Source of the DNA: Methylophaga sp.
Lineage (GTDB): Bacteria; Pseudomonadota; Gammaproteobacteria; Nitrosococcales; Methylophagaceae
Direction: 5' to 3'
Assembly (NCBI GenBank): GCA_011053005.1
Contig: DRHW01000005.1
Span: 62,001-126,000 of the forward strand
Length of the DNA stretch: 64,000 bases
In this document: in pieces, positions 26,704 to 34,622 of the stretch
Numbering within the stretch: position 1 is the stretch's first letter
Layout of the letters: each line of letters begins with the position of its first letter
Position numbers and translations under genes: made by a program
Notes under the pieces: model-generated
Databases searched by the model: none
Seen by the model: only the letters and a program-made list of their open reading frames with translations
What the model was told of the DNA's origin: nothing

Positions 26704-26741
26704 AAAAAGTCGTGTCAGCAAGCTTGCTGACACGACTTTTT
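26704..26741 (-). terminator. Strong bidirectional terminator
   Basis: A long perfect hairpin: GTCGTGTCAGCA and TGCTGACACGAC around AGCT, flanked by A6 and T5. It lies about 37 bases after the stop of the SH3-domain gene on the minus strand and separates it from the ars operon downstream. Confidence 0.85.
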
Positions 26742-32371: not shown

Positions 32372-32662
32372 ATGAATATTCGTCCCCTTCATGATCGGGT
32401 AGTTGTACGTCGCACAGAAGAAGAAACAATGAGCGCGGGTGGTATCGTGCTTCCTGGTAGCGCAGCTGAAAAACCAGCACAAGGTATTATCGTTGCAGCG
32501 GGTAACGGCAAAATCACAGATTCTGGTGATGTTCGTACAATGGACGTTAAAGTTGGCGATAAAATCTTGTTCGGCAAATACGCTGGAACAGAAATCAAAG
32601 TCGACGGTGAAGAATTATTAGTCATGCGTGAAGATGACATCGTTGCGGTAATCGAAGCTTAA
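32372..32662 (+). CDS. groES: Co-chaperonin GroES
   Basis: The 10-kDa lid of the GroEL folding chamber, 96 residues, full length. It opens with [14 protein letters not shown]. The mobile loop that binds GroEL reads [15 protein letters not shown] (about 17-31), with the IVL tripeptide intact. The end is [12 protein letters not shown] good ribosome site GAGGT lies about seven bases before the ATG. It is separated from groEL by 176 bases, far more than the 40-odd of E. coli, because of a palindromic insert. Confidence 0.98.
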
Positions 32663-32677
32663 GCAACTAAAAACATC

Positions 32678-32767
32678 GTTATTCCTTCTGAAAATTAATA
32701 GGATTCCATGCTAAAAACGAATCATTTTTAGCATGTTGGACAGCCCATTAAGTCAGCAAGGAATAAC
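32678..32767. repeat. 90-bp near-palindrome between groES and groEL
   Basis: Outer arms of 10 bp match perfectly (GTTATTCCTT at 32678-32687 with AAGGAATAAC at 32758-32767). Inner arms of 11 bp match perfectly (CATGCTAAAAA at 32707-32717 with TTTTTAGCATG at 32725-32735) around a 7-base loop. Between them CTGA/TCAG and TTAAT/ATTAA also pair. The whole could fold as one imperfect hairpin of about 40 bp in DNA or in the groESL transcript. It may be a small palindromic or MITE-like element, or a transcript-processing or attenuation structure. Confidence 0.8.
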
Positions 32768-32826
32768 ACCAAAGATAACTTAGATTAAACCCAATACCGG
32801 TTAATTTAAGACTTTCAAAATATTAA

Positions 32827-34476
<1,650 letters not shown>

Positions 34477-34584
34477 GCAAACGCTTACTTATAGTCCATT
34501 TAAATCAATGCGTTACAAAATATCGTAGGTATTGATGTAGGAAGGTTTAACAACGAACTTTTCTACCACTTTACGACAAACTAG

Positions 34585-34622
34585 AAACCCTCAATCATTT
34601 ATTTGATTGGGGGTTTTCTTTT
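34585..34622 (+). terminator. Terminator of the groES-groEL operon
   Basis: AAACCCTCAATCA pairs with TGATTGGGGGTTT around a short AT loop and is followed by TCTTTTTT. It lies about 110 bases after the groEL stop and isolates the next gene from heat-shock transcription. Confidence 0.9.

Follow-up and report, generated by a model that had tools for sequence, protein, structure and literature searches.

The chaperonin genes groES and groEL lie next to each other in the stretch of Methylophaga DNA analysed here (64,000 nucleotides, referred to below as the window) and are separated by a nested 90-bp palindrome, which raises the question of where this structure came from and whether it acts in the chaperonin mRNA. 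The coordinates given for the palindrome in a first-pass annotation are exact, and its perfect 10-bp outer arms, perfect 11-bp inner arms and 176-base spacer in the genome of the window (G000) are all borne out by the sequence (Table 1). The outer arms are complementary without mismatch over their whole length, while the inner arms, read from the sequence, are contained in a 14-nt inverted repeat (93%). The patches between outer and inner arms, which that annotation had described as complementary, do pair in the predicted fold of the 90 nt.

Table 1. Features of the groES-groEL region in the window, and copies of other palindromes in groESL and further loci (L handles)
Feature	Position	Strand	Basis
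groES (96 aa)	32372..32662	+	ORF; query for locus search
Nested 90-bp palindrome, probable fossil CGTC-type REP dimer with a predicted fold as one long hairpin; 5' end 15 nt past groES stop	32678..32767	+	fold, inverted repeats, kinship via G012/G020, compensatory changes
Outer arm, 5' side, GTTATTCCTT (GTCACTCCC in G012 and G020)	32678..32687	+	
Inner arm, 5' side, CATGCTAAAAA	32707..32717	+	
Inner arm, 3' side, TTTTTAGCATG	32725..32735	+	
Outer arm, 3' side, AAGGAATAAC (CGGGAATGAC in G012 and G020)	32758..32767	+	
Second, smaller hairpin, between palindrome and groEL ribosome-binding site; also in G012 and G020, where one pair shows a double compensatory change	32779..32810	+	
groEL Shine-Dalgarno-like AGAGG	32827..32831	+	sequence, folds
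groEL (545 aa)	32839..34476	+	ORF; tblastn identity 78-98% to 26 other groEL stretches
Terminator-like hairpin 3' of groEL	34584..34617	+	consensus scan
Family A copies	L053:377-520, L060:385-518, L200-L215		
Family B copies	L070:228-339, L220-L228		
Family B-type copies 3' of groEL	L028:3165-3273 (G004), L036:3187-3295 (G005), L042:6-114 (G015), L034:9-119 (G008)		

As RNA the palindrome has a predicted minimum free energy of -29.8 kcal/mol, against -12.2 +/- 2.9 kcal/mol for 200 dinucleotide shuffles (z -6.0; 0/200 as good). By raw energy alone 14 of the 2131 forward-strand 90-nt tiles of the window fold equally well or better, and the fold is unusual given the A+T-rich composition of the palindrome (34% G+C vs 41.5% for the window). 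A second hairpin, missed in the first-pass annotation, follows it (-8.3 kcal/mol, z -4.3, 1/200 shuffles as good), and the two hairpins occur together also in the spacers of two relatives, G012 and G020. The spacer has no Rfam match above the gathering score, only sub-threshold ones, and nothing resembling a terminator or a promoter was found in it. A strong hairpin past a stop codon could stop part of the transcription and so reduce groEL compared with groES, and partial termination had indeed been proposed for this site; however, a consensus scan, which recognises simple intrinsic terminators only, finds none in the spacer and one after groEL, and no T-run follows either spacer hairpin. With no such site between the two genes, the proposal is not supported, and we regard termination as scarcely credible here.

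The palindrome is single in its own genome (2.89 Mb in 44 contigs, 99.96% complete). A BLAST search of G000 with the spacer returned the locus itself, its reverse strand (E 9e-7) and nothing else below E 0.24, and a covariance model of the palindrome, trained on its three known copies, found the locus only, at E up to 1. Similarly the dispersed-repeat pattern GTCAYYCCN{50,80}GGRATGAC has 0 matches in G000, and a pattern of the A/B type, two further palindrome families treated below, found nothing there. Many copies in the genome had been named in advance as the mark of a MITE or REP; because BLAST, covariance model and pattern found no other copy, this expectation fails for G000 and a multicopy MITE or REP in that genome is rejected.

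The groES query gave 591 pattern matches, 585 of which encode relatives, and 80 loci were kept. Among 29 genomes of the genus, 23 matched groES/groEL DNA; the other six gave no groES-groEL match and their spacers are unseen. The spacer is 28-56 nt long in 17 of the 23 and long in six, namely G000 (176 nt), G012 and G020 (181 nt each), G005 (179 nt), G015 (169 nt) and G021 (178 nt). Among the relatives, a hairpin of the window type was seen in G012 and G020 only, and none of the 79 spacers obtained from the 80 loci in the named collection contains GTCAYYCC and GGRRTGAC 30-90 nt apart. In a groEL tree of 25 rows, built without G021 and G026 (groEL stretches under 600 nt), the three carriers form the clade G000+(G012,G020) with support of 100/100, and the next branches are G010+G017, with spacers of 51 and 52 nt, and then G019, with 56 nt. 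The simplest history would be a single gain on the stem of the three-carrier clade. The comparison with relatives for an empty site, as the first-pass annotation had proposed, yields the short spacers, but neither a target-site duplication nor an exact empty site is cleanly readable by eye against the G010 and G017 spacers. G012 also contains a second, more distant groES-groEL pair (L069, G012:C82:14148-14900; 62% and 83% identity) with a 91-nt spacer, which would be either a paralogue or a contaminant and is excluded from the count of 23.

Dispersed repeats of the type GTCATTCC...GGAATGAC, with the canonical dimer GTCATTCCC, are found elsewhere in the genus. The pattern GTCAYYCCN{50,80}GGRATGAC matches in 14 of the 29 genomes with up to 36 forward-strand matches per genome (G005 36, G015 35, G004 31, G007 27, G016 11, G009 9, G012 8, G010 5, and one each in six other genomes, the groESL copy of G020 included), while the reversed control pattern has 0 matches in all 29. 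The three-copy covariance model, applied to the 29 genomes with a cut-off of E 1, gave 24 match rows outside groESL (E 9e-4 to 0.9), which lie in six further genomes and in G012. Twenty-one loci of these rows, 77-101 nt in length, were inspected; 20 carry GTCAYYCC...GGRRTGAC, the remaining one (L235) misses it by one base, and many contain nested half-sites such as GCGGGAATC...GATTCCCGC. In a rough reading of the open frames around 33 dispersed copies, 16 lie between codirectional, nine between convergent and two between divergent frames, two are inside a frame and four were left unassigned. ATTCCC-8-GGGAAT, which we take to be the dRS3 form, is present in 6 of the 42 copies first collected.

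The link between these repeats and the groESL palindrome runs through the sister copies. The fetched loci held 42 distinct repeat copies, from which the groESL copy of G020 and one copy from another organism were dropped, and an HMM of the remaining 40, none of them from groESL, matches the G020 palindrome over its whole length (19.3 bits) and that of G012 over most of its length (16.5 bits), with no match in the 12 other spacers given, G000 included. With nine bases fixed at each end, 0/1000 interior shuffles reach the real score for either G020 or G012, and the best of them score 14.4 and 12.6 bits. This reciprocal test is not fully independent because gathering the 40 copies relied in part on the window-type model and on a pattern that it had informed, and the kinship of the window copy rests on G012 and G020 because the repeat HMM does not match the window copy itself. 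The hairpin is very probably what is left of a small palindromic repeat of a common kind, which arrived a single time in this lineage and whose base-pairing persisted, and the palindrome of the window is thus most likely a fossil REP dimer.

The dispersed copies fit the CGTC-tagged REP dimers, a class that includes neisserial dRS3 and the Rickettsia elements RPE-4 and RPE-6 (Di Nocera, De Gregorio and Rocco 2013, PMC3733652). According to that description, CGTC repeats are mainly intergenic, often near the 3' end of the upstream gene, their dimers may form one large stem-loop, and a dedicated transposase is apparently absent (PMC3733652). The groESL palindromes resemble them in having two apparent half-sites, head to head around a structured spacer and capable of forming one large stem-loop, and in lying directly past the 3' end of a gene whose neighbour runs in the same direction; the G012 and G020 copies likewise start with CGTCACTCCC and finish with GGGAATGACA. 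In contrast, the window copy is single in its genome, where relatives hold up to 36 forward matches, and forms one long predicted hairpin inside groESL. The tag, often TGTC or CCTC, is replaced in the window copy by CGTT and TGTT, one at either end, whereas the ends of the G012 and G020 copies are CGTC and TGTC, so that the tag is present in the sister copies only. The described REP unit, a stem-loop of 8-9 bp with a 4-5 nt loop and a CCA-like tail, is absent from the predicted folds of the window, G012 and G020 copies, and many copies in the genus have loops longer than the 4-5 nt described. Described dimers mostly have spacers of 20-100 bp; the outer arms of the window copy are 70 nt apart, and the HMM aligns end to end with G020 but does not match the window copy. 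Because the CGTC tag and the half-site stem-loops have been lost, the window copy would be a descendant of the class and not a member in good standing. Four loci of G004, G015 and G016 (L241, L243, L246 and L247) hold CGTC-type dimers between short inverted flanks TTGAAACTGCA...TGCATCTTCAAGT, in which they resemble the dimers inside palindromes described for H. neapolitanus (PMC3733652). Papers that matched the letters of the repeat were taken for primer or chance matches.

Comparison of the three carriers, which represent about two independent lineages, shows that pairing outlived the letters. RNAalifold on the three spacers gave 41 pairs, four of them with changes on both sides. Between G000 and G012, 40 pairs carry eight changes on the left and five on the right, and five pairs are changed on both sides (hypergeometric P 8.5e-5), four of which are compensated; two one-sided changes keep a pair and one breaks it, the broken one being an outer pair that is C.A in G012 and G020, and one of the pairs that differ on both sides is unpaired in G000. 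These counts come from a MAFFT alignment not fitted to structure, to which the C.A pair was added by hand. The comparison of G000 with G020, not independent of the first, gives five coincidences and four compensated pairs (P 4.7e-4). Of the four compensated pairs, the palindrome contains three and the second hairpin one, and all four are transitions. At two of the three in the palindrome G012 and G020 hold C-G, a frequent state in the dispersed repeats, so the window's lineage appears to have gone from C-G to U-A at those two pairs.

The rate of change differs along the spacer. The palindrome differs between G000 and G012 at 34/94 sites, the same rate as groEL fourfold sites (97/266), while the whole spacer (42/174, P 0.007) and the second hairpin (3/31, P 0.002) are slower than fourfold sites. 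Between G012 and G020 the spacer differs at 8/178 sites against 38/269 groEL fourfold sites (Fisher P 0.0008) and the palindrome at 4/96 (P 0.008). The 100 nt after groEL align in the three genomes at 60-66%, compared with 59-61% for shuffled sequence. Over the G000-G012 distance the letters of the palindrome are thus not conserved and only the pairing is: the fold was kept while the letters drifted, because the four pairs changed on both sides stay paired.

Pairing kept through compensatory changes is what is expected of an RNA hairpin and gives some support to that reading; templated repair could do likewise. An idle old REP dimer, of the same origin as proposed above, with arms held complementary by nothing but templated repair of quasi-palindromes, would explain why the palindrome drifts at the fourfold rate between G000 and G012 and why the four compensated changes are all transitions. 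It accounts poorly for the separate small hairpin, which also carries a double change and evolves more slowly than fourfold sites, for the slow palindrome between G012 and G020, and for similarity that is still recognisable when that after groEL was lost over the same time. We assign to this idle state a minor share of the probability of the common origin. Selection on an RNA is a likely cause but not the only candidate, because templated repair could also keep the arms complementary.

The same data bear on a different origin, a native intercistronic RNA structure of groESL that is unrelated to repeats, arose in the clade and was selected as a regulatory hairpin. The compensatory pairs, the slow evolution of the spacer between G012 and G020 and the second conserved hairpin would all suit such a structure, as would the lack of another copy found in G000 and of an HMM match for the G000 copy. 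However, the G020 palindrome matches the dispersed repeat end to end and that of G012 matches mostly, also when set against the fixed-end controls, and 17 of the 23 relatives are without a long spacer, so that we consider a native structure unlikely. The first-pass annotation had left the choice between a small palindromic mobile element and an RNA hairpin. Both halves find a place in the present results, the short spacers and the match of G012 and G020 to a dispersed family pointing to a REP- or MITE-like origin and the compensated pairing to a hairpin, but the single copy in G000 does not agree with an element multiplied in that genome.

The proposed course of events begins with a head-to-head CGTC-type REP dimer that would have entered the short groES-groEL spacer once, just past the groES stop, in the common ancestor of G000, G012 and G020. 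Read-through transcription would then place the palindrome in the groES-groEL mRNA as one long hairpin, followed by the second small one, and its sequence would have drifted while its pairing was retained, probably because the hairpin acts in the mRNA. Such a hairpin might block 3' exonucleases and protect groES, or might be a substrate for a double-strand ribonuclease and so uncouple the groES and groEL mRNA levels. That the base-pairing was kept suggests that the hairpin survives as a structure in the chaperonin mRNA; taken alone, a role of the hairpin as RNA has, in our estimate, slightly less than an even chance. The insertion by mobility, the transcription, the RNA role and its direction are steps that we infer from sequence comparison and prediction.

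Known repeats offer precedents for a hairpin of this kind. REP/BIME elements between the genes of enterobacterial operons stabilise the upstream mRNA, as in the malE-malF case, and the groESL mRNA of Agrobacterium is cleaved. The window palindrome is similarly placed past the upstream stop codon, and an uncoupling of upstream and downstream mRNA would be expected of it too; it differs in being probably related to CGTC-type repeats, while the enterobacterial elements are of the GTAG type and linked to RAYT transposases (PMC3733652). Compared by description, ERIC and Correia/NEMIS elements are likewise palindromic, mostly intergenic and transcribed in mRNAs, Correia elements being cleaved by RNase III and transcript levels changing where ERIC has inserted at the 3' end of a gene (PMC10969869), whereas no terminal duplication is read in the window palindrome. 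Among the papers listed by literature searches, no direct precedent was seen for groESL mRNA processing of this kind or for REPs near groEL.

An RNA switch would be another way for the hairpin to act, the 5' arm pairing in turn with its partner arm and with the Shine-Dalgarno region of groEL in a thermometer-like control of groEL translation, and the 5' arm region is 74% complementary to the groEL start region over 23 nt. However, the 5' arm of G012 and G020 has three T/C differences from that of G000, which the partner arm matches at two, the third being the C.A pair, while the Shine-Dalgarno stretch AAAGAGGAATAAAC is invariant in the three genomes. Neither the predicted fold of the isolated spacer nor the centroid of a 261-nt stretch pairs the AGAGG, and in the minimum free energy fold of that stretch it sits in a weak 4-bp hairpin with the near CUUU and not with the 5' arm. 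Because the partner arm, and not the Shine-Dalgarno stretch, changes alongside the 5' arm, a switch is disfavoured and appears very improbable.

The other long spacers of the genus, in G005, G015 and G021, hold other palindromes that are multicopy in the genus (families A and B, in G005/G015 and G021, respectively). As modelled, family A is about 145 nt and family B about 110 nt long, and the arms of both covary. The models R1 (family A) and R2 (family B) have no match in the groESL loci of G000, G012 and G020 at E up to 10, and over the whole window R2 has none and R1 one, elsewhere, at E 1.2; membership of the window palindrome in either family is rejected. The two families look related because their models match each other's copies, R1 all four B loci given (E 7e-7 to 0.02) and R2 three of the five A loci given (E 5e-9 to 1e-6), missing the groESL copies of G005 and G015. 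None of the A and B loci given to Rfam had a match above threshold. The family A fold was examined in an alignment (A2) of 17 copies, made from 20 by leaving out L214, L216, L217 and L219, which have an extra internal stretch, and the weak L218, and by adding L053 and L060. There 14/34 pairs are changed on both sides and 95.1% of cells are paired; 0/500 shuffles were as high on four measures and 10/500 on a fifth, controls that are generous because the structure was derived from the same alignment. The extra stretch of the four copies, about 50 nt and similar in sequence, is possibly an insertion within the element.

In a scan of the taxonomic family that scored 55 candidates per genome under stricter filters, 20 of the 57 genomes had R1 matches with E no higher than 0.001, with up to 19 rows per genome, some of them both strands of one place, and with none in G000, G012 and G020. 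The copies of both families lie close to gene ends. For 18 copies (13 A, 5 B) out of the 20 A and nine B fetched, the aligned element edge was compared with open frames of at least 80 codons, and in all 18 it falls between -6 and +9 nt relative to the stop codon of such a frame; this comparison looked from -14 to +32 only and contains two pairs that are the same gene in two species. Several of the adjoining frames resemble gatC, fliE, glnA, ilvC, argJ, trxA, dapD and slyD. On rough open-frame context, 12/17 A and 8/10 B copies lie between codirectional frames and two A copies between convergent ones, the rest being unassigned. Family B copies at the same gene junctions in different species, with similar flanks and frames, are L221, L223, L224 and L225 on the one hand and L220 and L222 on the other; because these junctions are common to different species, some family B copies were probably inherited and not freshly inserted. 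In the groESL gap itself, family A must have been gained twice, lost or exchanged, because the groEL tree does not place G005 and G015 as sisters, and the spacer of G004, which is the sister of G005, is short. A family B-type copy, matched by R2, is also found downstream of groEL in G004, G005, G008 and G015, 5 nt past the groEL stop in all but G005, whose groEL frame could not be followed. That frame appears shifted near codons 28-51 (L036, about 1542-1700; two tblastn pieces in different frames), either through an assembly error or in reality.

The structure in the groES-groEL gap is real, and a worn REP dimer is a fairly ordinary origin for it; the interest lies in the pairing that was kept and in the other palindromes that entered the same gap in sister lineages. 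The gap may have taken up different palindromes separately within the genus (a CGTC-REP dimer, family A and family B), which were then kept as mRNA hairpins and so supplied raw material for tuning GroES to GroEL, a generalisation that we put forward as a tentative and rather doubtful one. If it is true, families A and B would constitute a class of structured RNA elements at 3' ends, roughly 100-145 nt in length and unmatched in Rfam, that lie no more than a few nucleotides from the stop codons of core genes across the taxonomic family. As a rule, dispersed palindromic repeats are investigated where copies are plentiful. In the present case one copy survives alone in an essential operon, the corresponding sites of close relatives are short and a sister species carries a multicopy family, so that the step from a mobile repeat to a kept mRNA hairpin is open to examination; the case also offers a concrete way to ask whether hairpins of this kind determine the ratio of groES to groEL. 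Elsewhere in the window, positions 26704-26741 form a perfect 38-bp palindrome, AAAAAGTCGTGTCAGCAAGCTTGCTGACACGACTTTTT, which is terminator-like and could act on both strands.
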